DNA of 64,000 nucleotides, from contig NC_012871.2 of the NCBI RefSeq assembly GCF_000003195.3, forward strand, positions 2,901,997 through 2,965,996. Direction: 5' to 3'. The position numbers were made by a program, and so were the translations under genes. Positions 20,559 through 64,000 of this stretch are shown one piece after another. The first letter of the stretch is position 1; each line of letters begins with the position of its first letter. Below the pieces are notes generated by a model. The model had not been told where the DNA came from, made no database searches, and saw nothing but the letters and a program-made list of their open reading frames with translations. The DNA comes from Sorghum bicolor. Taxonomy: Eukaryota > Streptophyta > Magnoliopsida > Poales > Poaceae.

Positions 20559-20644
20559 GGCTGCTCCGATCCGATCCACTCCACCCAGAGTCCCAGAACC
20601 GGGGCGGCCGGTAGCTCTCACTCCTTGGGCGCCATCTGCGCGCG

Positions 20645-20651
20645 TTTTATA
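20645..20651 (-). promoter_or_regulatory. TATA box of the patatin-like gene
   Basis: On the minus strand the sequence reads CCGCTATAAAACGCG, a consensus TATA box about 87 bp upstream of the chosen ATG. That leaves a short 5' UTR. Confidence 0.75.
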
Positions 20652-20659
20652 GCGGGAGG

Positions 20660-37277: not shown

Positions 37278-37719
37278 AGACTACATACTTCAATATTGTG
37301 TTGAGTTAAATTCTCCAACCTTAATTAAGTTTATAGGAAAATACACCAATATTTACATGTAAACAAATAGTTTCTTTAGAAAATAAGAGCAGATAATATT
37401 TAAAGGAAGAGAAAATCTTTTTTTTTTTAAAAAAAAAACATAGAGGAAGAGAAACTTTTTGTTTTTTTTACAACTCTTCTACGAGAAGACTCCGTGTATT
37501 CCAGCAAACATGTGTTTTCTCAAGGACTTTTGTGTGAAAATTGTGGTCCACTCGTATTCCTGGACGCGAGCGAAACCGAACCGGAGACAGACACGACGAG
37601 CTGCCCGATTCCTTCCCCACATCCATCGTCAAAAGGAGAAGAGAGAGAGAGAGAGGAGCAAACCCTAGCTCCAGCTTGCCTCCTACTCCGCCATCATCCA
37701 GATCCGGCCGGTGCGTGCG

Positions 37720-39996
37720 ATGGCGCTGCGCGTTCTGGCCCGTAAGCTGAGGTTCCCTGCCACGTCCGTTCTCCAGCGGGCGTCGACCCCCGTGGTGTCG
37801 CCGCCGGCGAGCTCCCGACTTCTCACCTCCCACTCCTCTCAGGTGCGTGTTCTCCGTTTTCTGCTCTGGATTATATTGATCAGCGGAGCAATCTTCTTCT
37901 GAGATCATGAGCGCGCGGTTAATATTGCGAGCTGGACTGGATTCGCCTCCAGCTGCAGGACCGTACCTGATGTTTGTCCCAGTATGGCTTAGGATTTCAC
38001 TCGCATGGTGCAAGGATTTTTGTTTCCTCTAGTTGATTGAATTGAATTCTAAAGCAGATCACTGTAGCCCGCTATTCTGATCGAATAAGTTTTTTCTTTT
38101 TTCATCGAAGTGTGAGAGCTGAATAAGCTAAGGAGGAAACGATCGATCATGTAGAAAGGGAAAAATTGGGATTAGTCTCTTTATGCATTAAACTGTTGAC
38201 AGATGAATCAGGTGTCACCTTGCTTTGTCGTCGAAAATTTTAACCGGAACTTCTCATGTCGGTTTGTGTATGAGAGTAATATAATATGGAAGATGAACTA
38301 TCTATTCTCTTCTTCTATCATTTACCTGGTACTACAGAACTGTCATGTTTTAGTAAATCGTTTAGAAGTACGTGATGTGTACAATCTTGGTTATTTTCAT
38401 CTTGACCCTTTTCTGTAAGTAATCAATAAGACTTTTAGGAAACAGTGTCTCTTGTGCCATATTTCTTACTCAACTTTTAATCTAAAAGGACATGTCTTTT
38501 TAGTTAGGAATTATTTGGCCATACTTAGACTAAGCTGGAGTCCCTGCCTTATGCATTTGTAGTTCAGCTTCAGTAGCCATTCTATTTGTCTGTTTTCGAT
38601 CACCATATGCCAAAATAGCTTAAGGGCATATAGATAAATGTGTTTTCTCAAACATAAGCCATAACCCTTCAAGCACCTTCTGGGCTGCTGCTGCCCACTG
38701 CTTGTTGCACACCTGTACCACCTCTCTTCTGAGCCTTTACCCCGATTGTGTCCATCGGATGATTGCTATGTTGAAATTACTCCAGATTAATATATTGACT
38801 GGGTTTCGAATCTCTGCTAGCAATATGAATCTAAGTAAATGGGGACACAAGCTGAACTTGATGTATGTGACGTGGGCATGAGTGAGAAGCTCACTGTAAG
38901 TTGGACCAAACTCTCAGTATATGTGTGTATTGTCTACTGCTAAGCTTGGCCAAGTTGCTCTCCTACCAAAAGGCACACTACATCTGCCTCCGGTCCATCC
39001 AACATCAGGAACTTATTTGGTCCTTGTGGGACTGCTGTTTCTTTTCCAAATAATGCGCATTATGGCAGAATTTTATCTATTATATGTAAGAGAGTATGTA
39101 GGAGATATACAAGGCCCAACTTGGCAAATTACAAAATTCTGAAACAATTGGGCAGTTCCTTCAATGTAGATATTAGGATGGGTGTGAGTAAAGCTATGTG
39201 CTCCCTAATCTAGAATATATCAGCAACCTTTTTTTTTTGTTTGTTGCACCATGTACTCAAGATGACTTTGAACTGTTTGGTTCTGCACATGGCTTTCCTA
39301 AACTGTTTGCCTAATTCTCTAATCTGCTAGTGGTGTCACCTAGTCTGTCAAATTTGCAATAGAGCGCCTGGTTGTCGTTTTTAAGGACTTACTTTTTAGT
39401 CTGTTCCCAGCTTTTCATGACTTTCTAAATTTAGTTTTCTGAGATACCCAAGGTTTATGCTACTTGGATGCTAGCACTAATCAACTTCTTTATTTTTTTT
39501 TCTTGAAGCAATTATCATGCATGGTCGATCACTCTTGCAGTCTACCTTGAACTGAGTTTCCAATGTTAACATGTGCCTCAGTTTGGTTTAAGTTTCCTTC
39601 TGATCGTTTTAAATAATTGAAAATTGCAGAGTGGAGGAGCCAAGAGAGCAGTGAATGAGACCAGGAATGCTCGACCAAGGTGGAGGAATTACAAGAAACT
39701 GGAGAAGCGTTTTTTGTAAGTGAAACTTTAAATTGCTCCCATTTGATTTCACCAAATGGTATGATCCTAGTATGTAACCTTTCCTGTGTTATTTTTGTAT
39801 AAGGCGCGATATGGAGAAGGACATGAAGAATTTCAAGGAGCTTTCATTAGCTATGGACAACTTGCCAAGGAATGTTGTACTCACTTCCTCTGTTGGTCTT
39901 GCGGTTTTGACAACCGGCTGGGCGTATGCCATTGGTGTTTTCGATTGGAACAGAATGGGGGACAGTGAACCTTCGGATCAACAAGGTGTTGTGTAG
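37720..39996 (+). CDS. Gene A, copy 1: small predicted mitochondrial membrane protein
   Basis: Exons are 37720-37842, 39630-39715 and 39804-39996. Donors are CAG|GTGCGT and TTT|GTAAGT, acceptors TTGCAG and TATAAG, and the phases agree, giving 133 aa. The N-terminus (MALRVLARKLRFPATSVLQR) is basic, hydroxylated and lacks acids, as in mitochondrial presequences. Residues 42-83 are highly charged (RPRWRNYKKLEKRFLRDMEK), followed by one membrane segment at about 93-116 (VVLTSSVGLAVLTTGWAYAIGVF) and a short acidic tail. I do not recognise the family. Purifying features (clean splice sites, coherent protein) argue it is a real gene. It is convergent with gene B. A CT/GA-rich leader with a GA microsatellite precedes the ATG. 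Confidence 0.78.
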
Positions 39997-40086
39997 ACGC
40001 ACCCCATGAATAATCTATGAGACTTTTATATTTATGTAAGAGAAATGAAATGGTGCGGACAAGGAGAAGACTGTATGCTTGTTAAG

Positions 40087-40691
40087 TAAGGCCTTGTTTA
40101 GATCCAAAATTTTTTCTGTTTTTGACACTAGCAATTTCGTTTTTATTTGACAAACCTTGTCCAATCATGGAGTAACTAGACTCAAAAATTTAATTGGATG
40201 TTTGACTGTTTGGTTTGTGGAATGAAGCTATCTATCACAATTTCACTACTTAGTTTTTTTTGTTTGGTTTGTGGAATAGAATAAGGCCTTGTTCAGTTCA
40301 CAAAAAGCATGGTTTTTGGCTACTGTAGCACTTTCGTTTTTATTTGACAAACATTGTCTAATCACGGAGCAATTAGTTTTTATTTTTATCTATATTTAAT
40401 GCTCCATGTATGCGACCAAAGATTCGATGTGACGGAAAACCTTGAAAATTTTTGTGAACTAAGCCCTTGTTTAGATGCGAAAAGATTTTGGATTTCGCTA
40501 CTGTAGCACTTCAGTTTGTTTGTGGCAAATATTGTCCAACTATGGACTAATTAGGATCAAAAGATTTGTCTCGCGATTTACAGTTAAACTGTGCAATTAG
40601 TTTTTATTTTTGTCTATATTTAATGCTTAATGCATATGCCAAAAGATTTGATGTGATGGGAAATCTTGTGGTTTTCAGGTGAACTAAGGCC
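40087..40691. mobile_element. Cluster of Tourist-like MITE copies downstream of gene A (unit 1)
   Basis: Three partly overlapping family members lie here: a truncated copy from 40087 (GGCCTTGTTTAGATCC), one at about 40284-40466 (GGCCTTGTTCAGTTC...GTGAACTAAGC), and one at about 40464-40691 (GCCCTTGTTTAGATGCG...GTGAACTAAGGCC). All share the TTTTTATTT(T/G)ac, CTATATTTAATGCT and GATGTGA core. They begin 90 bp after gene A's stop and could supply its 3' end. Confidence 0.75.
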
Positions 40692-41164
40692 TTGTTTAGT
40701 TCGCAAAAATTTTCAAGATTCCCCGTCACATCGAATCTTTGGTCTCATGCATGGAGTATTAAATATAGACAAAAATAAAAACTAACTGCACAGTTTACCT
40801 GTAATTTGTGAGATGAATCTTTTGAGCCTAGTTACTCCGTGATTGGACAATGGCCTTGTTTAGTTCGGAAAACTTTTTGGTTTTCGGAACTGTAGCACTT
40901 TCGTTTTTATTTGATGAACATTGTCCAATTACGAAGTAACTAGGCTTAAAAGATTCATTTCGCGATTTACAGGTAAACTGTGCAACTAGTTTTTATTTTC
41001 GTCTATATTTAGTGCTTCATGCATGTGTCACAAGATTCGATGTGACGAGGAATCTTGAAAAAATTTTAGATTTTGGGGTGAACTAAACAAGGCCAATGTT
41101 TGTCAAATAAAAACGAAATGCTACCGTAGCCAAAAACAAAAATTTTTGCGAACTAAACAAGGCC
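40688..41164. mobile_element. Tourist-like MITE with another copy nested inside (unit 1)
   Basis: The outer element runs GGCCTTGTTTAGTTCGC to GCGAACTAAACAAGGCC with TAA on both sides (40685-40687 and 41165-41167). It is interrupted at 40852-41094 by a second, oppositely oriented family member with its own GGCCTTGTTTAGTT/AACTAAACAAGGCC ends and AAT on both sides. Removing the inner copy joins TTGGACAAT to GTTTGTCAAATAAAAACG as in other family members. Confidence 0.9.
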
Positions 41165-41511
41165 TAAACAAGACCTAAGTTGATCTGTCGCCACCTTGTT
41201 ACTCCCAAGCTGAAATGTGGTTATTATACTAAATTTGAGCAATTGAATAAATTTGAGCAATTGACTCCTGATGCATCACTCGGTCACTCCATCTAAAATG
41301 GGTTGACGTCCGAAACCAAACACTCCAAAAGAGCATCTCTAGTAGTTTCCACTAAATTGTTTGGTAAATAAATGAGTTTTTCAACTAAAAATAGGAGGAT
41401 TGTTGACTTTCTCCAACGTTTACAATATTTTGCTAAAAAAAAAAGACTTGGCCCACTCGACACTCATGCTCACTGCTTCCTCCTAACTGCTTCCTCCCTA
41501 ACTTCCAGAAC

Positions 41512-44292
41512 TCACTGCTTCCTTCCCCACTTCCAGAACTTGAGTGACTCTAAAATACTATTCTTCACTTGGCCCCCAACACAATCTATCATGGTATTGG
41601 TAATCACTTCAGTTAGCTCTTTAGCCATCTTCTTAACCTTGTCCTCGTCCACATCATTAGCCATGTTTTTGAGTTCTTCGGCTAACTTGATAAACTTTTT
41701 CGACGCTACCTCCGCCACATGTGGTGCTACCACCTCCATAACTAGGTAGCAGCCTAAAATTATACCTACTAGGAGCCAACCGAAGAAGTAAAGTGGTAGC
41801 AGCCTGACTTGATTCTTCAACTTCTCACTCTCGAGCTCCATCTCACGCCTATGATTAACATAAACAACAATCAAACCAGAATGTTTGAGTTAAATAAGAT
41901 GCTTCATTTCATATTAGACGTCTCATACATACTAAGTCATAATAAGCACAGCAAGATTCTTAACAAAAGACACACCAAGATTATGCTAAACAACATGCAT
42001 ACTAGGACATTTATTAGTTAATTGGTTGAGCACCATTAGTTTCAGTGGCACATCACTTTACAAGGTCGCACAAGGTCTTAGGTATGTTAACTGAGATTTA
42101 CTAGGGTCATGAGCTAGCTTTAGTATACGTACACAACATCAAGCTAAAAGAATCAACTTAGGCAAGCAAGATTGTGGACTACAACACAACAATTACTTGT
42201 TTTAACCATAACTACAAGCATCCAACAAACATGGTCCTTAGCTTTTTGGAAAGCTTATTAAGCTTTATACAACTTTCTTACTATTATCACTCAGAGTTGA
42301 TTCAATAACTAACAAGGTCAAACATTACCAAGAAGCATTTTTGTCTAGACTTAGACAAAATCTGACATTAAGCTTTAGATATTTGCAACTGGAGTTCTAG
42401 TTTACCAAAAGTTGTGTTCTTTAACATTTTGGAAAGCTTTTTAGTTACTCAAACAACCACACGCAAGAAAATCATCACATAGACAAACTATCCATTACTT
42501 ATTTTATTAACAAGAGAGCATAAAACATATGCCATTCAAGAGCTCAACCATTACTAGCATAACTCAACAACATTTCATAAGAATCATCACAAGAATTACA
42601 TACATGTTCATTTATTAGCAAAACTTTCTTACGTTTTATAGATTAAAGAGATATTTAATAAAGGGGCGGTATGGCAAACATTTAGTTTGGACCTGAGATT
42701 TTTATGGTTGGAAGAGGTTGTCAAAGCATGACTACTGTAGAAACATTACATGCTCAGGTTTAATAGATTAATTATTTCAATAAGAACAAGTTTTTATTGC
42801 AATAAAACATGTGAGAGTAAGTTAAATCTAAAGATCCACATTTTCTGTATATCCATGCACTTATAACTGAATAAACAGTAAACGTAATAGAGATGACGTG
42901 CTGATGAGTTTACCTGACCAAAAGACTGAACTTCACATGGAGGTAGACACAGGTTTCAATACGACGGACATGGAACTGAAGCTTGGCCAATTTTGCCATG
43001 ATTTTGCTTTGATTCTGCAGTCTTGGCTTCAAGGACTCGTCATCACCGCCAGACTTCTGGCCACCAGATTTCTCATTGCCACCGGCTGTGGAAGAGTAGC
43101 CACGCCGACCGGTTATACCCAACACGGTGGGGATGGTGCAGAACCGAGAGCCGTTGGGCGCGGCACCAGCGACGGCGGCCGCCTCCTTGGCGCCGACCCG
43201 GGCGCGGTTCTCGGTCTTGGGGCCCTCAAGGCCGTTGGACCCAGCAGCAGGGAGGAGCAGCGCGACGAAGAGTCGTGGGTGCGTCGGCACTAGAAGCACG
43301 CGCGAGGCGGAGAGGATTGCGGCGGCGGCGGCTGCTGCCATAGGGCACTCAAGCGGCGGCCCCAGGAACGCAGCGCCGCGTGGTCCTAGCGCGGCGTCCT
43401 CGACACAGAGCATCGCACCGCCGTAGTCGCCGTTCGTGCCGTAGGCAGAGTCGACCACCAGGAACGCGGAGTCACCTCCTCCCATGGCGAAGGCAAATCC
43501 ACTGCCTTGGGCACCGGTGGTGATGGGGACGGCGAGGGCCAGGCACGAACGATTGGGCGCGGCGCCGCCAGCGACGGTGTCCGCCTCCCTGGCGCGGACC
43601 CAGACGTGATCGTCGGACCCGGAAGGGAGGGAGATAGGGCGCTCGAGCGGCGGCGCCAAGAACGCAGCGCCGCATGGCCCTAGTGCGGCGTCCTCGACGC
43701 ACAACATCGCCCCGCAGTAGTGGGCAGAGTCGACGCCGACGACCACCAGGTGCGTGTAGTCACCTCCTCCCTCGGCAGCACCGCCGGGCTCCTGAGCGTC
43801 GCGATGGCCCACGGAGAAGGGAAATCCACCGCCTTTGGCTCCGGTGGTGGTGATGAGGATAGCGAGGGCGAGCCGCGAACGGTTGGGCGCGACGCTGCCA
43901 GCGACGGTGTCCGCCTCCCCGGCGCGGACCCGGGCGTGGTCGTCGGACCCGTCAGGGAGGAGCGGGGCGAAGACGAACCTTTGGAGCACAGGCGCCAGCA
44001 AGCGCGGGGCTCCGGGGAGGATGGCGGCGGCGATAGGACGCTCGAGCGGCGGCGCCAAGAAGGTAGCGGCACGCGGCGAGAGGGTGGCTGCGCGGCGAGA
44101 CTGCTTGCCGGCGGCGCGAGACAGTAGCTGAAGCGGGGTGGGGGTTCGCGACGAGCCAGTGGGGTTTTGGGGGGTTATGGAGGAGGCGGCGGCGGTGGTA
44201 GGGCGCTGGAGCGGCGGCGCCAAGAAGGTAGCGGCCGTGCGGCGGGACTGCTTGCCGGCGGCGCGAGCCAGGAGCTGGAGCACTCCGGCCAT
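41512..44292 (-). CDS. Gene B, copy 1: internally repeated, predicted mitochondrial membrane protein
   Basis: Exons (minus) are 44292-42914 and 41848-41512. The donor is GTCAG|GTAAAC, the acceptor AATCATAG|G, and the frame is kept through a split Arg codon, giving about 571 aa. The N-terminus (MAGVLQLLARAAGKQSRR) is presequence-like and repeats at about residue 53 (LQLLSRAAGKQSRR). Three or four modules follow, each with FLAPPLERP, an R-EADTVAGxxAPNRSxLALA block and AMLCVEDAALGPxG. The last leads into RRGYSSTAGG, a typical presequence cleavage context, then a basic linker. Exon 2 holds a membrane segment (about residues 477-497, PLYFFGWLLVGIILGCYLVM) and amphipathic helices. The family is unknown. 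The repeats suggest duplication within the coding region; gene status of the GC-rich exon is less certain than that of exon 2. Confidence 0.65.
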
Positions 44293-44888
44293 GTCTCCGG
44301 GTGGGGTTTGCGGCGAGGCAGTGGGGTTTTGGGGGGAGGGGTAAACGAAGGCGGCGGGAGGGGGATCAGAGCAGGCAGGGTTTTCCTCCGTCCCTCACCG
44401 TTGCCAATGACAATGGGTTTCGAGAGGCCGAGAGGGGAGTGGGTGGTTAAAGCAAAACTGGCTGAGGCGAAGGGAAGCGGGGACGTACGGCAGTGCATGT
44501 GGCGACAATGGAGGACGAAGCCCTGCTGCTGCTGCTGCGCTGCGACTGCGAGTGCTTTTCTGTTTCGCTCTTGCTCAGGCTCGTCGGCAGTCGCCTCTGT
44601 CTGGCCTTCCTCTCCATGAGTTTTGAGTGCGTAGCATCGTGGTGCGTTATTCCGCCGGCCGTCGGTACACCACCAGGTAACTACGTGCAGCACGGACCGC
44701 CGGAGACCGGCCGGCAGGCCGGGCGTAGAGGTAGTAGAGCTCTATCGCCTCGTCTCGTCGAATGTGAGGAGATCAGAATGCGTCGCACGCCAAACCCCAC
44801 GCGGCCGTCAGGCGTCAGTGACCGGTCACACTGACCTACTGCGCGCGCTGCCAATGGGCGCCACACTGGCCTTGTATTCCATCTCAAA
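44293..44888. promoter_or_regulatory. GC-rich upstream region of gene B (unit 1)
   Basis: It lies immediately 5' of gene B on the minus strand and is GC-rich with C/T-rich tracts, fitting a grass 5' UTR/promoter. A CTG-type run (GCTGCTGCTGCTGCGC, about 44524) lies here. Open frames on both strands appear to be by-products of composition. I see no clear TATA box. Confidence 0.45.
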
Positions 44889-47800
44889 ACCTAAAATTTT
44901 TTAAGATTTCTTTTCATATCGAATCTTTAAACGCATGCATAGAGTATTAAATATAGACAAAAATAAAATCTAATTGTACAGTTTGGTCGGAATTTATGAG
45001 ACGAATCTTTTGAGCCTAGTTATTCTATGGTTGGACAATAATTACCACAAACAAACAAAAGTGTTACAGTGTCGCGAAATTTTCCCTTCAGAAACTAAAC
45101 GCGGCCTAGTTGGATGTGCCACTCGATGTGACGAATAATCTTAGGTCTGGTTTACTTCAACCAAAAAACCAAAAAAAATTAAAATTTTGAATCTTGTGGC
45201 AAATACATAAAACATTAAATATAGATGAAAACAAAAACTAATCATACAATTTACCTGTAAATCGTGAGATGAATATTTTAAGTCTAATTAGTTTATAATT
45301 AGATAATAATTATTAAATAAAAACAAAAAAGTTATAGTATGTAAAACTATTTTTTTTGGAATTAAACAAGACATTAATCCCTTGGGAAGAAAGGGCCGGA
45401 ACGAAAGGCTGCTTGTAGCCGATCGTAGTCCTTTAGACAGAGGGTGTGTGTGGGTGGCCGGGGGGGGGGGGGGGGAGCACGCTACTATCTACAAGTTCAA
45501 ACACATGTGTGTCACCAAACTATACTGTTGATTGATGCATTTCTTTTATATAAGAAGAAACTAATTAAGTCAAGTTAAAAGTTAAACAACTATTTACTTA
45601 GGTAGGACAACTAAAATGAACTACACGTACTCCCATGTGATAAATAAAAAAAATAATTGGCATGTTTAACTTTATTACAGAGTATTCGTTATTTTATGCG
45701 CTAGATTCTTAAGATGCATCAAGTGAGATTTTGTAACAAGTATATCTGAATACAACACATAAATATATACATTTCAATTCTAAGATTCGATCAAAGTTTT
45801 CATCATAAATTAATTAATGTTTTCCTTAGCGGAGGAGTGCTTATGTATGGGTGTGCGTCATACGGTGTCATCTACTACATGCGCGCGGTGAAATACTATA
45901 CGGCTAGCAGACGGAAGGCCCTGTTTAGATTGTAGATAAAAATTTTTTAGGTGTCACATCAGATGTGTCGGAAGGATGTCGGGAGGAATTTTTAGAAACT
46001 AATAAAAAAACAAATTACATAGCTCGTCAGGAAACTGCAAGACAATTCTATTAAGCATAATTAATCTGGCATTAGCACATGTGGGTTACTGTAGCACTTA
46101 AGGCTAATCATGGAGTAACTAGGTTTAAAAGATTCATCTTGCGATTTTTAACTAAACTGTGTAATTAGTTTATTCTTTTATTTACATTTAATGTTCCATA
46201 TGCATGTGTCCAAAGATTCGATGGGATGGATAAAAAAATTTTGGGTGAGGAACTAAAGAGGGCCTAGTACACGCTTGGAGCCTTTGGTGCCATAGCCCAA
46301 AGTAATACCAGCTGTCTCCACTCTTTAGTAGCAGTAGCAGCGGGTGTTTGGCTGGGGTTGTTAAAGTTTAACACATACTGTAACATTTTCATTTTATTTG
46401 TCAATTAGTATCAATCATAGTCTAATTAGACTCAAAAGATTTGGTTCGTAAATTACTTTTTAGTTTTTTAAATAGTCTATATTTAATACTCTATACATGT
46501 GCCTAAACATTCGATTTGACGGGAGTTAAAGTTTAATAACTGGACCAAACAGGGTACTTGGTCTGTAAATAACTGTCTTTTACGCTTTACAAGAAATAAT
46601 TTTAATTACATAGATATTAATAATATTAATATTTATGATACATAATTAGTATCATTAGAAAGATATTTGAATCTAGTTTTTTTAATAATTTTATAAAAAT
46701 ATAAATGTTGTACGTATTTCCTATAAATTAAATTAAACTTATGGCATATACATCAGCGATGACAATTAGATTGGGACGCAGGAGTAAGGCCTTGTTCAGT
46801 TCCCAAAATTTTTTGATTCGGGATACTGTAGAACTTTCATTTTCATTTGACAATTATTGTCTAATAATGGACTAACTAGACTTAAAAGATTCATCTCGCG
46901 ATTTACAGGTAAACTGTGTAATTTGTTTTTTGTTTTCGTCTATATTTAATGCTTCATGTATCTGACGAAGAATCTTAAAAAAAAAAATTCGTTTTTGAAG
47001 TGAAAGAACTTGGGCCTAAAGTAATACTCCTCTACAAGTACAAGTACAAGTACAAGTACAAGGGCACAGTAAAAAACCCGGAAACTCTCAAGCAGAGGCT
47101 GTGTAAAAACCAGCAATGGCTGCCTCCTACTCCTGCTACGGTACCAGTACACCGAGGCCTTGGTTAGTTCAAATTTTTTTATAAAATGTACACTGTTGTA
47201 TTTTTGTTTGTATTTGATAAATATTGTCCAATTATAGATTAATTAGTCTCAAAAGATTCGTTTCATAAATTACAAATAAACTGTATAATTAGTTATTTCT
47301 TTTATTTATATTTAATGTTTTATATATGTGGTGTAAAATTCGATGTAACAAATAATATGAAAAAATTTGCAAACTTTTTTAAAACTAAACAAGACGCTAC
47401 ACCTAGCACCTGCAACTCCTATTGGAACGGTCAAAAGCCAGAGATAACGCACGATCACATCACGCAATTGGCCCGCCTCGCCTCGGTTCTCTGATAGGCA
47501 GCTTTTGAACGGTGAAGATAGTACATGCCCAGATGTACATACCACCAGACATTTTCGCACTGCCGGGTGCCTGCCTGAATTCCTTTCTGTCTGTACTGCT
47601 CCGCCCGGTGCCTTCTATCAGCTCCCTCCACCGCACCATCCATGCTCTCCTCTCCTCTAGTACCGTAGGCTGTTGGCTACCCTTGTTTAGTTTGTAAAAA
47701 AAATTAAGATTTTCCGTCGCATCGAATCTTTCGACATATACATTGAATATTAAATATATAAAAAAATAAAAATTAATTACACAGTTTATCTATAATTTAC

Positions 47801-48565
47801 GAGACGAATCTTTTAAGTCTAGTTAGTTTATAGTTAGACAATAATTAACTAATACAAACGAAAATGCTACGGTTTCTAAAATCCAAAAATTTTACCATGT
47901 GAACAAGACCTAAAACCAAGGCTGTTGGCTCTTGTTCTGCCGCCTGTTAGCCTCTCGCCTCTCCACACACGACTCAACCTGCTTTCACCGGCTATACATT
48001 TTTTTTTTGGAAAAAAAGGGAATTCTGCCAATGCATAAAAAGACTCTTTTTATGTAGTGTGTACATAAACAAAAATTACTCCATCTGTTTTTGCATGAAT
48101 CAGGCCCCGTTTAGTTCTAAAAAATTTATAAAATTTTCTAAAATTCTTCATCACACCTAATCTTTGGACGCATGCATTGAGCATTAAATAAAAATAAAAA
48201 ATAAATAATTGCATAGTTTTGCGAAACGAATCTTTTGAGCCTAATTAGTCCATGATTGGACCATAATTATCAAATACAAACGAAAATACTACAGTAACCA
48301 AACCCAATTTTTTTCACCAACTAAACAAGGCATCAATTCCTAGAATTCATGTCAGTCAGACCTTTTTAAGTTTGACTAACTTTATAAAAAAGAGGAATGA
48401 TACCTATGACATAAAATGAACATCTTATGAAAATATATTGTATGATAAATCTTATTATACTAATATGATACTATAAATTCTATTTTTTTAAAAAAATGGT
48501 CAAATTTTAAAAATTTAACTTAAGATAACTTTGGAAATCTATTTATTTAGGGACTGAGGGAGTAT
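44889..48565. mobile_element. MITE-dense region of unit 1
   Basis: I count about eight Tourist-like members by their cores and ends: about 44889-45110, 45144-45373, 45918-46264, 46345-46556, 46790-47016, 47156-47394, 47686-47912 and 48105-48331. Two AT-rich Stowaway-like members are at about 46566-46785 and 48346-48565 (the second ends GGGACTGAGGGAGTA). Between them are a 16-base G run (about 45460-45475), a TACAAG microsatellite (47033-47062) and a GC-richer piece at 47395-47680 with no supported gene. Borders are approximate because many ends have decayed. Confidence 0.7.
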
Positions 48566-50329: not shown

Positions 50330-50345
50330 AGACTACATACTTCAA
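50307..50345. repeat. Array junction with a repeated 16-bp word
   Basis: AGACTACATACTTCAA occurs at 50307-50322 (end of unit 1) and again at 50330-50345 (start of unit 2), separated by AAGGAGA. The unit 2/3 junction is identical (63363-63378 and 63386-63401). The left edge of the array has only one copy (37278-37293). Confidence 0.92.
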
Positions 50346-50774
50346 TATTGTGTTGAGTTAAATTCTCCAACCTTAATTAAGTTTATAGGAAAATACACCA
50401 ATATTTACATGTAAACAAATAGTTTCTTTAGAAAATAAGAGCAGATAATATTTAAAGGAAGAGAAAATCTTTTTTTTTTTTAAAAAAAAAACATAGAGGA
50501 AGAGAAACTTTTTGTTTTTTTTACAACTCTTCTACGAGAAGACTCCGTGTATTCCAGCAAACATGTGTTTTCTCAAGGACTTTTGTGTGAAAATTGTGGT
50601 CCACTCGTATTCCTGGACGCGAGCGAAACCGAACCGGAGACAGACACGACGAGCTGCCCGATTCCTTCCCCACATCCATCGTCAAAAGGAGAAGAGAGAG
50701 AGAGAGAGAGGAGCAAACCCTAGCTCCAGCTTGCCTCCTACTCCGCCATCATCCAGATCCGGCCGGTGCGTGCG

Positions 50775-53051
50775 ATGGCGCTGCGCGTTCTGGCCCGTAA
50801 GCTGAGGTTCCCTGCCACGTCCGTTCTCCAGCGGGCGTCGACCCCCGTGGTGTCGCCGCCGGCGAGCTCCCGACTTCTCACCTCCCACTCCTCTCAGGTG
50901 CGTGTTCTCCGTTTTCTGCTCTGGATTATATTGATCAGCGGAGCAATCTTCTTCTGAGATCATGAGCGCGCGGTTAATATTGCGAGCTGGACTGGATTCG
51001 CCTCCAGCTGCAGGACCGTACCTGATGTTTGTCCCAGTATGGCTTAGGATTTCACTCGCATGGTGCAAGGATTTTTGTTTCCTCTAGTTGATTGAATTGA
51101 ATTCTAAAGCAGATCACTGTAGCCCGCTATTCTGATCGAATAAGTTTTTTCTTTTTTCATCGAAGTGTGAGAGCTGAATAAGCTAAGGAGGAAACGATCG
51201 ATCATGTAGAAAGGGAAAAATTGGGATTAGTCTCTTTATGCATTAAACTGTTGACAGATGAATCAGGTGTCACCTTGCTTTGTCGTCGAAAATTTTAACC
51301 GGAACTTCTCATGTCGGTTTGTGTATGAGAGTAATATAATATGGAAGATGAACTATCTATTCTCTTCTTCTATCATTTACCTGGTACTACAGAACTGTCA
51401 TGTTTTAGTAAATCGTTTAGAAGTACGTGATGTGTACAATCTTGGTTATTTTCATCTTGACCCTTTTCTGTAAGTAATCAATAAGACTTTTAGGAAACAG
51501 TGTCTCTTGTGCCATATTTCTTACTCAACTTTTAATCTAAAAGGACATGTCTTTTTAGTTAGGAATTATTTGGCCATACTTAGACTAAGCTGGAGTCCCT
51601 GCCTTATGCATTTGTAGTTCAGCTTCAGTAGCCATTCTATTTGTCTGTTTTCGATCACCATATGCCAAAATAGCTTAAGGGCATATAGATAAATGTGTTT
51701 TCTCAAACATAAGCCATAACCCTTCAAGCACCTTCTGGGCTGCTGCTGCCCACTGCTTGTTGCACACCTGTACCACCTCTCTTCTGAGCCTTTACCCCGA
51801 TTGTGTCCATCGGATGATTGCTATGTTGAAATTACTCCAGATTAATATATTGACTGGGTTTCGAATCTCTGCTAGCAATATGAATCTAAGTAAATGGGGA
51901 CACAAGCTGAACTTGATGTATGTGACGTGGGCATGAGTGAGAAGCTCACTGTAAGTTGGACCAAACTCTCAGTATATGTGTGTATTGTCTACTGCTAAGC
52001 TTGGCCAAGTTGCTCTCCTACCAAAAGGCACACTACATCTGCCTCCGGTCCATCCAACATCAGGAACTTATTTGGTCCTTGTGGGACTGCTGTTTCTTTT
52101 CCAAATAATGCGCATTATGGCAGAATTTTATCTATTATATGTAAGAGAGTATGTAGGAGATATACAAGGCCCAACTTGGCAAATTACAAAATTCTGAAAC
52201 AATTGGGCAGTTCCTTCAATGTAGATATTAGGATGGGTGTGAGTAAAGCTATGTGCTCCCTAATCTAGAATATATCAGCAACCTTTTTTTTTTGTTTGTT
52301 GCACCATGTACTCAAGATGACTTTGAACTGTTTGGTTCTGCACATGGCTTTCCTAAACTGTTTGCCTAATTCTCTAATCTGCTAGTGGTGTCACCTAGTC
52401 TGTCAAATTTGCAATAGAGCGCCTGGTTGTCGTTTTTAAGGACTTACTTTTTAGTCTGTTCCCAGCTTTTCATGACTTTCTAAATTTAGTTTTCTGAGAT
52501 ACCCAAGGTTTATGCTACTTGGATGCTAGCACTAATCAACTTCTTTATTTTTTTTTCTTGAAGCAATTATCATGCATGGTCGATCACTCTTGCAGTCTAC
52601 CTTGAACTGAGTTTCCAATGTTAACATGTGCCTCAGTTTGGTTTAAGTTTCCTTCTGATCGTTTTAAATAATTGAAAATTGCAGAGTGGAGGAGCCAAGA
52701 GAGCAGTGAATGAGACCAGGAATGCTCGACCAAGGTGGAGGAATTACAAGAAACTGGAGAAGCGTTTTTTGTAAGTGAAACTTTAAATTGCTCCCATTTG
52801 ATTTCACCAAATGGTATGATCCTAGTATGTAACCTTTCCTGTGTTATTTTTGTATAAGGCGCGATATGGAGAAGGACATGAAGAATTTCAAGGAGCTTTC
52901 ATTAGCTATGGACAACTTGCCAAGGAATGTTGTACTCACTTCCTCTGTTGGTCTTGCGGTTTTGACAACCGGCTGGGCGTATGCCATTGGTGTTTTCGAT
53001 TGGAACAGAATGGGGGACAGTGAACCTTCGGATCAACAAGGTGTTGTGTAG
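50775..53051 (+). CDS. Gene A, copy 2
   Basis: Exons are 50775-50897, 52685-52770 and 52859-53051. The predicted 133-aa protein appears identical to copy 1. All splice sites are retained, and the leader has one more GA unit than copies 1 and 3. Nothing marks this copy as inactivated. Confidence 0.78.
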
Positions 53052-53742
53052 ACGCACCCCATGAATAATCTATGAGACTTTTATATTTATGTAAGAGAAA
53101 TGAAATGGTGCGGACAAGGAGAAGACTGTATGCTTGTTAAGTAAGGCCTTGTTTAGATCCAAAATTTTTTCTGTTTTTGACACTAGCAATTTCGTTTTTA
53201 TTTGACAAACCTTGTCCAATCATGGAGTAACTAGACTCAAAAATTTAATTGGATGTTTGACTGTTTGGTTTGTGGAATGAAGCTATCTATCACAATTTCA
53301 CTACTTAGTTTTTTTTGTTTGGTTTGTGGAATAGAATAAGGCCTTGTTCAGTTCACAAAAAGCATGGTTTTTGGCTACTGTAGCACTTTCGTTTTTATTT
53401 GACAAACATTGTCTAATCACGGAGCAATTAGTTTTTATTTTTATCTATATTTAATGCTCCATGTATGCGACCAAAGATTCGATGTGACGGAAAACCTTGA
53501 AAATTTTTGTGAACTAAGCCCTTGTTTAGATGCGAAAAGATTTTGGATTTCGCTACTGTAGCACTTCAGTTTGTTTGTGGCAAATATTGTCCAACTATGG
53601 ACTAATTAGGATCAAAAGATTTGTCTCGCGATTTACAGTTAAACTGTGCAATTAGTTTTTATTTTTGTCTATATTTAATGCTTAATGCATATGCCAAAAG
53701 ATTTGATGTGATGGGAAATCTTGTGGTTTTCAGGTGAACTAA

Positions 53743-54219
53743 GGCCTTGTTTAGTTCGCAAAAATTTTCAAGATTCCCCGTCACATCGAATCTTTGGTCT
53801 CATGCATGGAGTATTAAATATAGACAAAAATAAAAACTAACTGCACAGTTTACCTGTAATTTGTGAGATGAATCTTTTGAGCCTAGTTACTCCGTGATTG
53901 GACAATGGCCTTGTTTAGTTCGGAAAACTTTTTGGTTTTCGGAACTGTAGCACTTTCGTTTTTATTTGATGAACATTGTCCAATTACGAAGTAACTAGGC
54001 TTAAAAGATTCATTTCGCGATTTACAGGTAAACTGTGCAACTAGTTTTTATTTTCGTCTATATTTAGTGCTTCATGCATGTGTCACAAGATTCGATGTGA
54101 CGAGGAATCTTGAAAAAATTTTAGATTTTGGGGTGAACTAAACAAGGCCAATGTTTGTCAAATAAAAACGAAATGCTACCGTAGCCAAAAACAAAAATTT
54201 TTGCGAACTAAACAAGGCC
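53743..54219. mobile_element. Nested Tourist-like MITE pair (unit 2)
   Basis: This is the exact counterpart of the nested pair in unit 1, with the inner element at 53907-54149. The nesting therefore predates the array duplication. Confidence 0.9.
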
Positions 54220-54566
54220 TAAACAAGACCTAAGTTGATCTGTCGCCACCTTGTTACTCCCAAGCTGAAATGTGGTTATTATACTAAATTTGAGCAATTG
54301 AATAAATTTGAGCAATTGACTCCTGATGCATCACTCGGTCACTCCATCTAAAATGGGTTGACGTCCGAAACCAAACACTCCAAAAGAGCATCTCTAGTAG
54401 TTTCCACTAAATTGTTTGGTAAATAAATGAGTTTTTCAACTAAAAATAGGAGGATTGTTGACTTTCTCCAACGTTTACAATATTTTGCTAAAAAAAAAAG
54501 ACTTGGCCCACTCGACACTCATGCTCACTGCTTCCTCCCAACTGCTTCCTCCCTAACTTCCAGAAC

Positions 54567-57347
54567 TCACTGCTTCCTTCCCCACTTCCAGAACTTGAGT
54601 GACTCTAAAATACTATTCTTCACTTGGCCCCCAACACAATCTATCATGGTATTGGTAATCACTTCAGTTAGCTCTTTAGCCATCTTCTTAACCTTGTCCT
54701 CGTCCACATCATTAGCCATGTTTTTGAGTTCTTCGGCTAACTTGATAAACTTTTTCGACGCTACCTCCGCCACATGTGGTGCTACCACCTCCATAACTAG
54801 GTAGCAGCCTAAAATTATACCTACTAGGAGCCAACCGAAGAAGTAAAGTGGTAGCAGCCTGACTTGATTCTTCAACTTCTCACTCTCGAGCTCCATCTCA
54901 CGCCTATGATTAACATAAACAACAATCAAACCAGAATGTTTGAGTTAAATAAGATGCTTCATTTCATATTAGACGTCTCATACATACTAAGTCATAATAA
55001 GCACAGCAAGATTCTTAACAAAAGACACACCAAGATTATGCTAAATAACATGCATACTAGGACATTTATTAGTTAATTGGTTGAGCACCATTAGTTTCAG
55101 TGGCACATCACTTTACAAGGTCGCACAAGGTCTTAGGTATGTTAACTGAGATTTACTAGGGTCATGAGCTAGCTTTAGTATACGTACACAACATCAAGCT
55201 AAAAGAATCAACTTAGGCAAGCAAGATTGTGGACTACAACACAACAATTACTTGTTTTAACCATAACTACAAGCATCCAACAAACATGGTCCTTAGCTTT
55301 TTGGAAAGCTTATTAAGCTTTATACAACTTTCTTACTATTATCACTCAGAGTTGATTCAATAACTAACAAGGTCAAACATTACCAAGAAGCATTTTTGTC
55401 TAGACTTAGACAAAATCTGACATTAAGCTTTAGATATTTGCAACTGGAGTTCTAGTTTACCAAAAGTTGTGTTCTTTAACATTTTGGAAAGCTTTTTAGT
55501 TACTCAAACAACCACACGCAAGAAAATCATCACATAGACAAACTATCCATTACTTATTTTATTAACAAGAGAGCATAAAACATATGCCATTCAAGAGCTC
55601 AACCATTACTAGCATAACTCAACAACATTTCATAAGAATCATCACAAGAATTACATACATGTTCATTTATTAGCAAAACTTTCTTACGTTTTATAGATTA
55701 AAGAGATATTTAATAAAGGGGCGGTATGGCAAACATTTAGTTTGGACCTGAGATTTTTATGGTTGGAAGAGGTTGTCAAAGCATGACTACTGTAGAAACA
55801 TTACATGCTCAGGTTTAATAGATTAATTATTTCAATAAGAACAAGTTTTTATTGCAATAAAACATGTGAGAGTAAGTTAAATCTAAAGATCCACATTTTC
55901 TGTATATCCATGCACTTATAACTGAATAAACAGTAAACGTAATAGAGATGACGTGCTGATGAGTTTACCTGACCAAAAGACTGAACTTCACATGGAGGTA
56001 GACACAGGTTTCAATACGACGGACATGGAACTGAAGCTTGGCCAATTTTGCCATGATTTTGCTTTGATTCTGCAGTCTTGGCTTCAAGGACTCGTCATCA
56101 CCGCCAGACTTCTGGCCACCAGATTTCTCATTGCCACCGGCTGTGGAAGAGTAGCCACGCCGACCGGTTATACCCAACACGGTGGGGATGGTGCAGAACC
56201 GAGAGCCGTTGGGCGCGGCACCAGCGACGGCGGCCGCCTCCTTGGCGCCGACCCGGGCGCGGTTCTCGGTCTTGGGGCCCTCAAGGCCGTTGGACCCAGC
56301 AGCAGGGAGGAGCAGCGCGACGAAGAGTCGTGGGTGCGTCGGCACTAGAAGCACGCGCGAGGCGGAGAGGATTGCGGCGGCGGCGGCTGCTGCCATAGGG
56401 CACTCAAGCGGCGGCCCCAGGAACGCAGCGCCGCGTGGTCCTAGCGCGGCGTCCTCGACACAGAGCATCGCACCGCCGTAGTCGCCGTTCGTGCCGTAGG
56501 CAGAGTCGACCACCAGGAACGCGGAGTCACCTCCTCCCATGGCGAAGGCAAATCCACTGCCTTGGGCACCGGTGGTGATGGGGACGGCGAGGGCCAGGCA
56601 CGAACGATTGGGCGCGGCGCCGCCAGCGACGGTGTCCGCCTCCCTGGCGCGGACCCAGACGTGATCGTCGGACCCGGAAGGGAGGGAGATAGGGCGCTCG
56701 AGCGGCGGCGCCAAGAACGCAGCGCCGCATGGCCCTAGTGCGGCGTCCTCGACGCACAACATCGCCCCGCAGTAGTGGGCAGAGTCGACGCCGACGACCA
56801 CCAGGTGCGTGTAGTCACCTCCTCCCTCGGCAGCACCGCCGGGCTCCTGAGCGTCGCGATGGCCCACGGAGAAGGGAAATCCACCGCCTTTGGCTCCGGT
56901 GGTGGTGATGAGGATAGCGAGGGCGAGCCGCGAACGGTTGGGCGCGACGCTGCCAGCGACGGTGTCCGCCTCCCCGGCGCGGACCCGGGCGTGGTCGTCG
57001 GACCCGTCAGGGAGGAGCGGGGCGAAGACGAACCTTTGGAGCACAGGCGCCAGCAAGCGCGGGGCTCCGGGGAGGATGGCGGCGGCGATAGGACGCTCGA
57101 GCGGCGGCGCCAAGAAGGTAGCGGCACGCGGCGAGAGGGTGGCTGCGCGGCGAGACTGCTTGCCGGCGGCGCGAGACAGTAGCTGAAGCGGGGTGGGGGT
57201 TCGCGACGAGCCAGTGGGGTTTTGGGGGGTTATGGAGGAGGCGGCGGCGGTGGTAGGGCGCTGGAGCGGCGGCGCCAAGAAGGTAGCGGCCGTGCGGCGG
57301 GACTGCTTGCCGGCGGCGCGAGCCAGGAGCTGGAGCACTCCGGCCAT
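54567..57347 (-). CDS. Gene B, copy 2
   Basis: Exons (minus) are 57347-55969 and 54903-54567, giving the same predicted 571-aa protein as copy 1. The substitutions I noticed near it fall in the 3' flank (54539) and in the intron (55046), not in the coding sequence. Confidence 0.65.
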
Positions 57348-60300
57348 GTCTCCGGGTGGGGTTTGCGGCGAGGCAGTGGGGTTTTGGGGGGAGGGGTAAA
57401 CGAAGGCGGCGGGAGGGGGATCAGAGCAGGCAGGGTTTTCCTCCGTCCCTCACCGTTGCCAATGACAATGGGTTTCGAGAGGCCGAGAGGGGAGTGGGTG
57501 GTTAAAGCAAAACTGGCTGAGGCGAAGGGAAGCGGGGACGTACGGCAGTGCATGTGGCGACAATGGAGGACGAAGCCCTGCTGCTGCTGCTGCGCTGCGA
57601 CTGCGAGTGCTTTTCTGTTTCGCTCTTGCTCAGGCTCGTCGGCAGTCGCCTCTGTCTGGCCTTCCTCTCCATGAGTTTTGAGTGCGTAGCATCGTGGTGC
57701 GTTATTCCGCCGGCCGTCGGTACACCACCAGGTAACTACGTGCAGCACGGACCGCCGGAGACCGGCCGGCAGGCCGGGCGTAGAGGTAGTAGAGCTCTAT
57801 CGCCTCGTCTCGTCGAATGTGAGGAGATCAGAATGCGTCGCACGCCAAACCCCACGCGGCCGTCAGGCGTCAGTGACCGGTCACACTGACCTACTGCGCG
57901 CGCTGCCAATGGGCGCCACACTGGCCTTGTATTCCATCTCAAAACCTAAAATTTTTTAAGATTTCTTTTCATATCGAATCTTTAAACGCATGCATAGAGT
58001 ATTAAATATAGACAAAAATAAAATCTAATTGTACAGTTTGGTCGGAATTTATGAGACGAATCTTTTGAGCCTAGTTATTCTATGGTTGGACAATAATTAC
58101 CACAAACAAACAAAAGTGTTACAGTGTCGCGAAATTTTCCCTTCAGAAACTAAACGCGGCCTAGTTGGATGTGCCACTCGATGTGACGAATAATCTTAGG
58201 TCTGGTTTACTTCAACCAAAAAACCAAAAAAAATTAAAATTTTGAATCTTGTGGCAAATACATAAAACATTAAATATAGATGAAAACAAAAACTAATCAT
58301 ACAATTTACCTGTAAATCGTGAGATGAATATTTTAAGTCTAATTAGTTTATAATTAGATAATAATTATTAAATAAAAACAAAAAAGTTATAGTATGTAAA
58401 ACTATTTTTTTTGGAATTAAACAAGACATTAATCCCTTGGGAAGAAAGGGCCGGAACGAAAGGCTGCTTGTAGCCGATCGTAGTCCTTTAGACAGAGGGT
58501 GTGTGTGGGTGGCCGGGGGGGGGGGGGGGGGAGCACGCTACTATCTACAAGTTCAAACACATGTGTGTCACCAAACTATACTGTTGATTGATGCATTTCT
58601 TTTATATAAGAAGAAACTAATTAAGTCAAGTTAAAAGTTAAACAACTATTTACTTAGGTAGGACAACTAAAATGAACTACACGTACTCCCATGTGATAAA
58701 TAAAAAAAATAATTGGCATGTTTAACTTTATTACAGAGTATTCGTTATTTTATGCGCTAGATTCTTAAGATGCATCAAGTGAGATTTTGTAACAAGTATA
58801 TCTGAATACAACACATAAATATATACATTTCAATTCTAATATTCGATCAAAGTTTTCATCATAAATTAATTAATGTTTTCCTTAGCGGAGGAGTGCTTAT
58901 GTATGGGTGTGCGTCATACGGTGTCATCTACTACATGCGCGCGGTGAAATACTATACGGCTAGCAGACGGAAGGCCCTGTTTAGATTGTAGATAAAAATT
59001 TTTTAGGTGTCACATCAGATGTGTCGGAAGGATGTCGGGAGGAATTTTTAGAAACTAATAAAAAAACAAATTACATAGCTCGTCAGGAAACTGCAAGACA
59101 ATTCTATTAAGCATAATTAATCTGGCATTAGCACATGTGGGTTACTGTAGCACTTAAGGCTAATCATGGAGTAACTAGGTTTAAAAGATTCATCTTGCGA
59201 TTTTTAACTAAACTGTGTAATTAGTTTATTCTTTTATTTACATTTAATGTTCCATATGCATGTGTCCAAAGATTCGATGGGATGGATAAAAAAATTTTGG
59301 GTGAGGAACTAAAGAGGGCCTAGTACACGCTTGGAGCCTTTGGTGCCATAGCCCAAAGTAATACCAGCTGTCTCCACTCTTTAGTAGCAGTAGCAGCGGG
59401 TGTTTGGCTGGGGTTGTTAAAGTTTAACACATACTGTAACATTTTCATTTTATTTGTCAATTAGTATCAATCATAGTCTAATTAGACTCAAAAGATTTGG
59501 TTCGTAAATTACTTTTTAGTTTTTTAAATAGTCTATATTTAATACTCTATACATGTGCCTAAACATTCGATTTGACGGGAGTTAAAGTTTAATAACTGGA
59601 CCAAACAGGGTACTTGGTCTGTAAATAACTGTCTTTTACGCTTTACAAGAAATAATTTTAATTACATAGATATTAATAATATTAATATTTATGATACATA
59701 ATTAGTATCATTAGAAAGATATTTGAATCTAGTTTTTTTAATAATTTTATAAAAATATAAATGTTGTACGTATTTCCTATAAATTAAATTAAACTTATGG
59801 CATATACATCAGCGATGACAATTAGATTGGGACGCAGGAGTAAGGCCTTGTTCAGTTCCCAAAATTTTTTGATTCGGGATACTGTAGAACTTTCATTTTC
59901 ATTTGACAATTATTGTCTAATAATGGACTAACTAGACTTAAAAGATTCATCTCGCGATTTACAGGTAAACTGTGTAATTTGTTTTTTGTTTTCGTCTATA
60001 TTTAATGCTTCATGTATCTGACGAAGAATCTTAAAAAAAAAAATTCGTTTTTGAAGTGAAAGAACTTGGGCCTAAAGTAATACTCCTCTACAAGTACAAG
60101 TACAAGTACAAGTACAAGGGCACAGTAAAAAACCCGGAAACTCTCAAGCAGAGGCTGTGTAAAAACCAGCAATGGCTGCCTCCTACTCCTGCTACGGTAC
60201 CAGTACACCGAGGCCTTGGTTAGTTCAAATTTTTTTATAAAATGTACACTGTTGTATTTTTGTTTGTATTTGATAAATATTGTCCAATTATAGATTAATT

Positions 60301-63300
60301 AGTCTCAAAAGATTCGTTTCATAAATTACAAATAAACTGTATAATTAGTTATTTCTTTTATTTATATTTAATGTTTTATATATGTGGTGTAAAATTCGAT
60401 GTAACAAATAATATGAAAAAATTTGCAAACTTTTTTAAAACTAAACAAGACGCTACACCTAGCACCTGCAACTCCTATTGGAACGGTCAAAAGCCAGAGA
60501 TAACGCACGATCACATCACGCAATTGGCCCGCCTCGCCTCGGTTCTCTGATAGGCAGCTTTTGAACGGTGAAGATAGTACATGCCCAGATGTACATACCA
60601 CCAGACATTTTCGCACTGCCGGGTGCCTGCCTGAATTCCTTTCTGTCTGTACTGCTCCGCCCGGTGCCTTCTATCAGCTCCCTCCACCGCACCATCCATG
60701 CTCTCCTCTCCTCTAGTACCGTAGGCTGTTGGCTACCCTTGTTTAGTTTGTAAAAAAAATTAAGATTTTCCGTCGCATCGAATCTTTCGACATATACATT
60801 GAATATTAAATATATAAAAAAATAAAAATTAATTACACAGTTTATCTATAATTTACGAGACGAATCTTTTAAGTCTAGTTAGTTTATAGTTAGACAATAA
60901 TTAACTAATACAAACGAAAATGCTACGGTTTCTAAAATCCAAAAATTTTACCATGTGAACAAGACCTAAAACCAAGGCTGTTGGCTCTTGTTCTGCCGCC
61001 TGTTAGCCTCTCGCCTCTCCACACACGACTCAACCTGCTTTCACCGGCTATACATTTTTTTTTTGGAAAAAAAGGGAATTCTGCCAATGCATAAAAAGAC
61101 TCTTTTTATGTAGTGTGTACATAAACAAAAATTACTCCATCTGTTTTTGCATGAATCAGGCCCCGTTTAGTTCTAAAAAATTTATAAAATTTTCTAAAAT
61201 TCTTCATCACACCTAATCTTTGGACGCATGCATTGAGCATTAAATAAAAATAAAAAATAAATAATTGCATAGTTTTGCGAAACGAATCTTTTGAGCCTAA
61301 TTAGTCCATGATTGGACCATAATTATCAAATACAAACGAAAATACTACAGTAACCAAACCCAATTTTTTTCACCAACTAAACAAGGCATCAATTCCTAGA
61401 ATTCATGTCAGTCAGACCTTTTTAAGTTTGACTAACTTTATAAAAAAGAGGAATGATACCTATGACATAAAATGAACATCTTATGAAAATATATTGTATG
61501 ATAAATCTTATTATACTAATATGATACTATAAATTCTATTTTTTTAAAAAAATGGTCAAATTTTAAAAATTTAACTTAAGATAACTTTGGAAATCTATTT
61601 ATTTAGGGACTGAGGGAGTATATCATCAATAGACTAATATTCCATGTATCCTTTAATACAAACTAATGTTGAATTTATTAAAGTAATTGAGGATAAAGAT
61701 GTATTGTGAGTAACATTTGATAGTCAAAGTACGTTTCTAAAGACTTTTTTCTTCACAAATCCTATATGCATTAGACAAATAAACGAAGGGAGTATTATTA
61801 CTAACGGAGATGATGTAGGGCCGCAACCCTATTCTGTTGTACTACTTTAGTCGTACTTTTCATTGAATAAACAATATTTTTTATCACAATATTTCAACAT
61901 AAGCCAAATTTTAGCAAAACTACTCGGACCAAGTGATTATACACATCCGTTTGCGCTGCCAGTAGAATATTTGCCCACTTCAAATTATGGCACTCGTTTG
62001 ATTATATTAATGCACAACAGTGAGGTTGTATAATATGAATCTTACTTTTATTACCAATTCTTATGAAAAAAATTACAATTGATGATTTTGGCAGACACTC
62101 CACTTGACCACCTATGCACTACGCAAGTGGGCCCAAACCCTTTGGAAATACTCTTAGTTGATTATAGAGGAGGTAGACACAAGATGATTTTGGCAGACAC
62201 GCCACTTGACCACCTATATGCACTACGCAAGTGGGCTCAAACCCTTTGGAAATACTCCTAGTTGATTATAGAGGAGGTAGACACAAGAAACGATCGACCA
62301 CTGGAAATTGTGTTTTTAGATGGGGTTCCTTGTGCGAGTCGACAAAAACCATTCAAACTTTTTTACAATTTTTAATCTTCTCAATGAAGTCGTGTTCAGA
62401 ATGAAAATTTATGGAGGGTAATATCGTCTCCATGCATCTATAGTAAAATTTATGTATTGTTTGCAAACTTTTTGGCATACACGTTTGAAAAATTTATGGA
62501 GGGTAATATCATCATTGTGACATCTTTTCCTTATACTTCACACGTGTACGACATTCCGAATACTTATACAAAAATAATTGTGAGAATTACAGTTGTAGAA
62601 GGGGATACACATGATATATGCCCCATAAAATCTCATTGGAACACAATTTAATTAAATGGACTAAAAATACAATTGGAGGTGCTTTTAGCCTTTTTCTTAT
62701 CAACATTAAGAGGTGGTTCACAAAAAGGAATTGTATATGAAGATAACCATTTTTTACGAGGGGGTATCTTAATTATGTAAACTGCGTCTCGAAATCACTT
62801 CCTGCAGCAAAGGTTCAAGAAAGGCTATTAGCAAAAACTATGTGGTGGTATGGTATCTGTTTAGAAAGGTTCTTAAGGAAAATCGCGTGATTCTATGGGT
62901 CCTTTTTGTAAGTAAACATACTACTAAGTACTAACAGATGACAAATTTGTTTCATAAAAAATAAAAAAACAAAGGACAAATTTCATGATCAGCCCCATGT
63001 CCTTTTTTAACTAAGTAGTGCCGGCCACCAACGTCAGCTCCATGTTCATCGAAAATTTTACAAAATGGTTACTGTAACACTTTCATTTGTATTTGATAAT
63101 TATTGTCTAATTATAGACTAACTAGACTCAAAAGATTTGTCTCGCAAATTACAAACAAATGCAATTAGTTATTTGTTATCTATATTTAATTAATGCTTCA
63201 TGCATGTGTCGCAAGATTCGATGTGACGGAAAATATTAAAAAAATTTACAGTTTTTTTAGAACTAAACAGTAAAAGTCTTCTTTTCCATTTTGCATCCCG

Positions 63301-63385
63301 GAAGAGACAGATGTTCTCTTTTATTTTTATTTTTATTTTTATTTTTTTTAGAAAATAAGAGCAGACTACATACTTCAAAAGGAGA
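57348..63385. other. Gene B upstream region and MITE-rich distal part of unit 2
   Basis: It matches 44293-50329 of unit 1 element for element, including the G run (about 58515-58531), the 102-bp duplication and the junction word. No additional gene is seen. Confidence 0.7.
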
Positions 63386-64000
63386 AGACTACATACTTCA
63401 ATATTGTGTTGAGTTAAATTCTCCAACCTTAATTAAGTTTATAGGAAAATACACCAATATTTACATGTAAACAAATAGTTTCTTTAGAAAATAAGAGCAG
63501 ATAATATTTAAAGGAAGAGAAAATCTTTTTTTTTTTTTAAAAAAAAACATAGAGGAAGAGAAACTTTTTGTTTTTTTTACAACTCTTCTACGAGAAGACT
63601 CCGTGTATTCCAGCAAACATGTGTTTTCTCAAGGACTTTTGTGTGAAAATTGTGGTCCACTCGTATTCCTGGACGCGAGCGAAACCGAACCGGAGACAGA
63701 CACGACGAGCTGCCCGATTCCTTCCCCACATCCATCGTCAAAAGGAGAAGAGAGAGAGAGAGAGGAGCAAACCCTAGCTCCAGCTTGCCTCCTACTCCGC
63801 CATCATCCAGATCCGGCCGGTGCGTGCGATGGCGCTGCGCGTTCTGGCCCGTAAGCTGAGGTTCCCTGCCACGTCCGTTCTCCAGCGGGCGTCGACCCCC
63901 GTGGTGTCGCCGCCGGCGAGCTCCCGACTTCTCACCTCCCACTCCTCTCAGGTGCGTGTTCTCCGTTTTCTGCTCTGGATTATATTGATCAGCGGAGCAA
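63386..64000 (+). repeat. Tandem array unit 3, start only
   Basis: It is colinear with the first 615 bp of units 1 and 2 and cut by the window end. The GA microsatellite length matches unit 1 rather than unit 2, while the T run is the longest of the three (13 versus 11 and 12). Confidence 0.95.
63829..63951 (+). CDS. Gene A, copy 3, exon 1 only (truncated by window end)
   Basis: The first exon encodes the same 41-residue presequence-like N-terminus and has the same CAG|GTGCGT donor as copies 1 and 2. The later exons lie beyond the window. Confidence 0.75.

Follow-up and report, generated by a model that had tools for sequence, protein, structure and literature searches.

A 64,000-nucleotide stretch of the Sorghum bicolor genome (RefSeq assembly GCF_000003195.3, contig NC_012871.2, positions 2,901,997 to 2,965,996 of the forward strand; hereafter the window, in whose own numbering all positions are given) contains a head-to-tail array of near-identical units of about 13 kb, with two small genes each, here referred to as gene A and gene B. 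Two full units and the start of a third fall within the window. Each full unit ends in a 39-bp filler, absent from a preliminary description of this DNA, that is a mosaic of three short, exact copies of sequence from the beginning of the unit. We consider it probable that the array is a young tandem gene amplification, founded through polymerase-theta-type, microhomology-mediated end joining and then extended by unequal crossing over.

Self-alignment delimits unit 1 (37278–50329, +, 13,052 bp), unit 2 (50330–63385, +, 13,056 bp) and the initial 615 bp of unit 3 (63386–64000, +), which is truncated by the window end. The near-identical 13-kb tandem array of the preliminary description is borne out by the dominant offsets among repeated 31-mers (13,055, 13,056 and 26,109) and by a BLASTN self-alignment of 37278–50946 with 50330–64000, which extends into the partial third unit and comprises 13,673 columns at 99.927% identity, with 4 mismatches and 4 gap openings. 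When only units 1 and 2 are compared, 7 columns differ. These are the three substitutions that had been counted before, found at exactly the same positions (41484/54539, T/C, 28 bp downstream of the stop codon of gene B; 41991/55046, C/T, in the gene B intron; and 45784/58840, G/T, about 1.5 kb upstream of the gene B start), together with three changes in run length, of a kind also described previously and all in simple runs (T at 37418, AG at 37640 and G at 45460). The coding exons of both gene models contain no difference between the two units. Unit 3 differs from unit 1 by one substitution and one gap column, and from unit 2 by one substitution and two gap columns; at one T-run/A-run site it has the allele T13A9, with T11A10 and T12A10 in the other two units.

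The filler occupies 50291–50329 (+) at joint 1 and 63347–63385 (+) at joint 2. Sequence comparison shows that the two copies are identical, and within the window the 39 bp occur at these joints only. An exact-copy search resolves the filler into three patches on the forward strand: a 19-bp copy of 37375–37393 (50291–50309 and 63347–63365), a 16-bp copy of 37278–37293 (50307–50322 and 63363–63378) and a 14-bp copy of 37629–37642 (50319–50332 and 63375–63388). The template region for all three is the left 365 bp of the unit (37278–37642, +). Short stretches are shared at each transition: TTT at the entry from a T-rich stretch, AGA between patches 1 and 2, TCAA between patches 2 and 3, and AGA between patch 3 and the unit start, such that the copying goes back twice to the identical AGA at 37278. 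The insertion is thus copied from near the break ends and has 3–4 bases of microhomology at every switch, both of which are features of a microhomology-mediated, theta-type joint. Templated insertions are regarded as a hallmark of polymerase theta in published work on worms and tumours, not plants (PMC7368036, as far as its available text goes). Error-prone end joining is known to yield filler of this sort, built piecewise from DNA next to a break with a few paired bases per switch. In maize, non-homologous end joining has been invoked to explain a 50-bp filler at the p locus that was copied from two neighbouring sites (PMC2686159, in the portion available).

All 39 of the 39 filler bases are covered by exact 10-mers from the first 400 bp of the unit, compared with at best 15 of 39 for the remainder of the unit (12,574 stretches of 39 bp; 10-mers, no overlap with the filler) and 17 of 39 among 37,230 stretches of the left flank. 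With 9-mers, the best other stretch reaches 23 of 39 in the unit and 22 of 39 in the left flank. Conversely, no 10-mer of the filler recurs in any of 611 other 400-bp templates from the unit, and the best of 1,844 left-flank templates covers 11 bases. Of 100,000 random sequences, 12,246 share at least one 10-mer with the first 400 bp of the unit and the best covers 31 of 39, in a control that keeps the nearest-neighbour make-up of the filler and is harsh in that the filler's own words get recombined.

The scar suggests the following course of events. Polymerase-theta-type, microhomology-mediated end joining would have linked a broken end at about position 50290 to one terminating at 37278; both ends could have belonged to a single excised fragment or, alternatively, to two sister chromatids. 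During repair, the first end would have been extended by copying its partner piecewise (37375–37393, then 37278–37293, then 37629–37642), with 3–4 paired bases at each switch, until it was sealed at the AGA at 37278, a position most easily understood as the point where the partner DNA physically ended. Joining between sister chromatids would yield a 13-kb tandem duplication, and joining within a single fragment a circle. Unequal crossing over between two adjacent 13-kb units may then have added at least one more, carrying the scar along, with near-identity maintained by youth, by exchange or by both. Because the same scar is present at both visible joints, the founding duplication was probably a single event, and the later copies most likely arose from the first joint by homologous exchange. 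This course would have produced extra complete copies of gene B with their upstream DNA, and extra copies of gene A whose upstream region is shortened.

Several observations weigh against this reading. The scars left by end joining resemble those of replication template switching. An alternative template exists for patch 3 (40061–40072, 12 bp). With 8-mers, the 39 of 39 coverage of the filler compares with 30 of 39 for the best other stretch of the unit (25 of 39 in the left flank). The native right flank falls outside the window, so that the newness of the 39 bp lacks direct demonstration, and the poly-run differences among the units may be sequencing error. The first point bears on fork stalling and template switching/microhomology-mediated break-induced replication (FoSTeS/MMBIR), in which a replication fork that had stalled or broken would have returned 13 kb by a series of short switches guided by microhomology and copied the unit anew. 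A complex joint with few shared bases per switch also fits this process, and FoSTeS is included among plant copy-number variation mechanisms in a review (PMC12073271, in the part available). The patches, however, are all short (14–19 bp) and derive from a single 365-bp stretch, and two hops back to exactly the same base are more simply explained by a physical DNA end. The double return of the copying to 37278 therefore leads us to favour end joining over replication template switching, as a preference only, and we regard FoSTeS/MMBIR as possible but unlikely.

End joining might instead have circularized an excised fragment of 13 kb, and the resulting extrachromosomal circle would then have multiplied before it was reinserted as a ready-made array by homologous recombination. 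One scar common to all units, an identical joint and few differences are what such a route would produce; there is no direct evidence for it, however, and two full units cannot separate stepwise from one-step growth. We consider the circle very unlikely. The preliminary description had also raised an assembly duplication. One locus, or two haplotypes, would then have been written several times, and the near-identity of the units and the predominance of run-length differences are in keeping with this. Yet such an artefact would not create a three-patch, 39-bp mosaic with microhomology, gene A is whole in each full unit, and one site carries three run-length alleles across the three units, although runs are error-prone. 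Since an assembler's false join would not yield the mosaic, at least one tandem joint is very probably real in the plant, and we judge the artefact to be highly improbable; for the joint itself, an assembly duplication is made unlikely by a templated filler that occurs in the window at its two joints only. The scar argues against recombination between flanking repeats as well as against a false join. The SRS-unit-SRS scheme of unequal recombination between short repeats at both unit ends, proposed for many eukaryotic arrays (PMC8831618, in the part available), is barely plausible here: the 16-mer AGACTACATACTTCAA is indeed present where the unit starts, with a second occurrence 23 bp ahead of each joint, but the scheme predicts one such 16-mer per joint, both joints have two, 7 bp apart, and the 19- and 14-bp patches are left unexplained. 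Duplications generated by reversed Ac/Ds ends are recognized by transposon ends and an 8-bp target duplication at the joint (PMC3744419, in the part available); by eye, with no dedicated search for transposon ends, the 121 bp across each joint contain only the T-rich run, the filler and the unit start.

Three substitutions in 13,052 bp support the earlier suggestion of a recent amplification or ongoing homogenization. At grass rates of 1.3 × 10−8 and 6.5 × 10−9 substitutions per site per year they correspond to about 8,800 and 17,700 years, respectively (95% Poisson limits, 1,800–51,700 years), a figure that dates the last common copy or the last homogenization and not the founding event. The patches match their templates exactly, and are too short to date that event.

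Two convergent genes per unit had been described, and in each full unit the two models are open. The coding sequence of gene A (+) is split into three exons, at 37720–37842, 39630–39715 and 39804–39996 in unit 1 (37720–39996) and at 50775–50897, 52685–52770 and 52859–53051 in unit 2 (50775–53051). The spliced model is intact in both and encodes the same protein of 133 amino acids; the first coding exon recurs in unit 3 (63829–63951, +), identical to that of unit 1. The product is identical over its full length to P0002, the hypothetical protein BDA96_02G032300 of Sorghum bicolor, a name in which ‘02G’ suggests chromosome 2; the array very probably lies on that chromosome. A protein search returned one cluster at E values up to 0.01 among 28 candidates, and its 6 member sequences from 2 contigs are uninformative on copy number. 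By eye, residues 1–50 include several arginines and lysines but lack acidic residues, in the manner of a mitochondrial leader, and residues 94–116 are hydrophobic. A single-sequence AlphaFold model has helices at 44–87 and 99–121 at a mean predicted local distance difference test (pLDDT) score of 62.2, too weak for a fold search. The best match among solved structures, the mitochondrial ribosomal protein uS14m (E = 0.43), was taken as chance.

Between the unit border and the gene A start codon there are 442 bp, and native upstream DNA beyond these is therefore kept by the first copy only; in later copies, the preceding unit's tail and the filler stand ahead of the 442 bp. The retained upstream part contains AAACCCTA at 37660, which we take to be a plant telo box, and no TATA(A/T)A was found in it. 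For gene B, each unit includes about 6 kb of upstream DNA. The anatomy of the array thus treats the two genes differently: gene B keeps its upstream DNA, and later copies of gene A keep only 442 bp of theirs.

Gene B lies on the reverse strand, convergent with gene A, and its two-exon spliced model of 571 amino acids is intact and identical in both full units (unit 1, 41512–44292, with exon 1 at 44292–42914 and exon 2 at 41848–41512; unit 2, 54567–57347, with exon 1 at 57347–55969 and exon 2 at 54903–54567). The start codon is a guess, and translation from a later ATG would shorten the protein. Its stop-free stretch of 494 codons exceeds what its composition would predict, being reached by 2 of 2,000 first-order random sequences over six frames. 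Exon 1 (42914–44292, −) is composed of diverged internal repeats with mostly frame-preserving spacing, the start distance being divisible by three in 8 of 9 repeat pairs, which are not independent of one another. Among at least 7,997 scored candidates, the only match to the full model was P0001, a 460-amino-acid frame of the window itself, and a query with the 248 C-terminal amino acids gave no match at E values up to 0.1 among 3,737 candidates. Searches against Pfam yielded nothing at E values up to 0.01 for the six-frame translation of unit 1, in which stops were read as X, and nothing at E values up to 0.1 for exon 1 (P0001). The exon 2 frame, at E values up to 0.1, gave four weak families (E = 0.012–0.097) below their curated cut-offs, and the 109-amino-acid C terminus matched a designed protein (E = 0.034) and a complex I subunit (E = 0.5) among solved structures; all of these were taken as chance.

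The preliminary description held that most of the DNA is made up of miniature inverted-repeat transposable elements (MITEs), which our analysis does not uphold: dispersed repeats recognizable from the window alone sum to about 2.9 kb (22%) of the unit, as added intervals that exclude a 104-bp doublet as well as exon 1 of gene B and that are a lower bound, derived without a repeat library. The doublet (95% matches; 49025–49232 and 62081–62288) is a further small tandem duplication, present in each full unit. No Rfam family matched 37000–50600 at gathering scores. A 509-amino-acid frame with a patatin-like phospholipase domain (19563–21092, −; Pfam E = 1.5 × 10−8) lies in the single-copy left flank. 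Elsewhere in the window there are a match to the tnp2 transposase family (25987–26481, +; Pfam Transposase_21, E = 1.2 × 10−27) that is presumably part of a CACTA-type element, and a pair of 407-bp direct repeats, 97% identical and spaced by 2,185 bp (26911–27317 and 29096–29502).

Comparable systems are known, and the following comparisons extend as far as the available parts of the cited sources. The array resembles maize P1-wr, which in a related grass comprises eleven near-identical head-to-tail copies of 12,602–13,026 bp, whose expansion has been attributed to gene conversion and unequal crossover (PMC2686159); the sorghum units are likewise head-to-tail, near-identical and of gene size, as in a recent tandem array of the P1-wr kind. 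P1-wr differs in having one Myb gene per unit, compared with two genes in sorghum, and in the position of its filler, which is located next to the array, in the p2/p1 chimeric gene, and not at every joint between units. Soybean Rhg1 is also a repeated block with several unrelated genes, but is 31 kb in size and has an established nematode-resistance phenotype and between-line variation (PMC12073271). The tandem duplications attributed to polymerase theta share joints with microhomology or insertions; they were found in worm mutants and tumours, however, without array growth, and a role of the enzyme in sorghum is inferred only (PMC7368036). Patch-repair tandem duplications in rice are natural, occur in a grass and are attributed to break repair, but are enriched at 50–200 bp, with a longest perfect case of 4.9 kb, whereas the sorghum unit is 13 kb, has a mosaic filler and is present more than twice (PMC7971508). 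We found no publication on this array by locus name, two papers containing only the prefix Sb02g0032, nor in the titles or opening abstract lines of the listed sorghum papers on tandem duplication and copy number (20 of 162) and on telomere-to-telomere assembly (12 of 25), which does not imply its absence from print; the available part of PMC8495935 names no such array.

The type of array is thus already known, and its uncommon feature is the readability of the founding scar. At a single locus, the scar separates the origin of an array (end joining) from its growth (unequal exchange or a circle), and it makes the question of an artefact answerable by simple polymerase chain reaction (PCR). It also marks one duplication event with a single tag amenable to PCR, and accessions with the 39-bp mosaic should share descent from that event. 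Higher dosage of gene A and gene B is a fair expectation. It is conceivable, if doubtful, that the array is a sorghum copy-number polymorphism of about domestication age or younger and under selection, that its two genes are lineage-restricted and encode small, perhaps mitochondrial, membrane proteins, and that the repair also changed regulation; in that case, the scar itself would have produced a differently controlled second copy of gene A, with native upstream DNA lost past 442 bp. If copy number varies among lines, the array would provide a handle on two uncharacterized genes.
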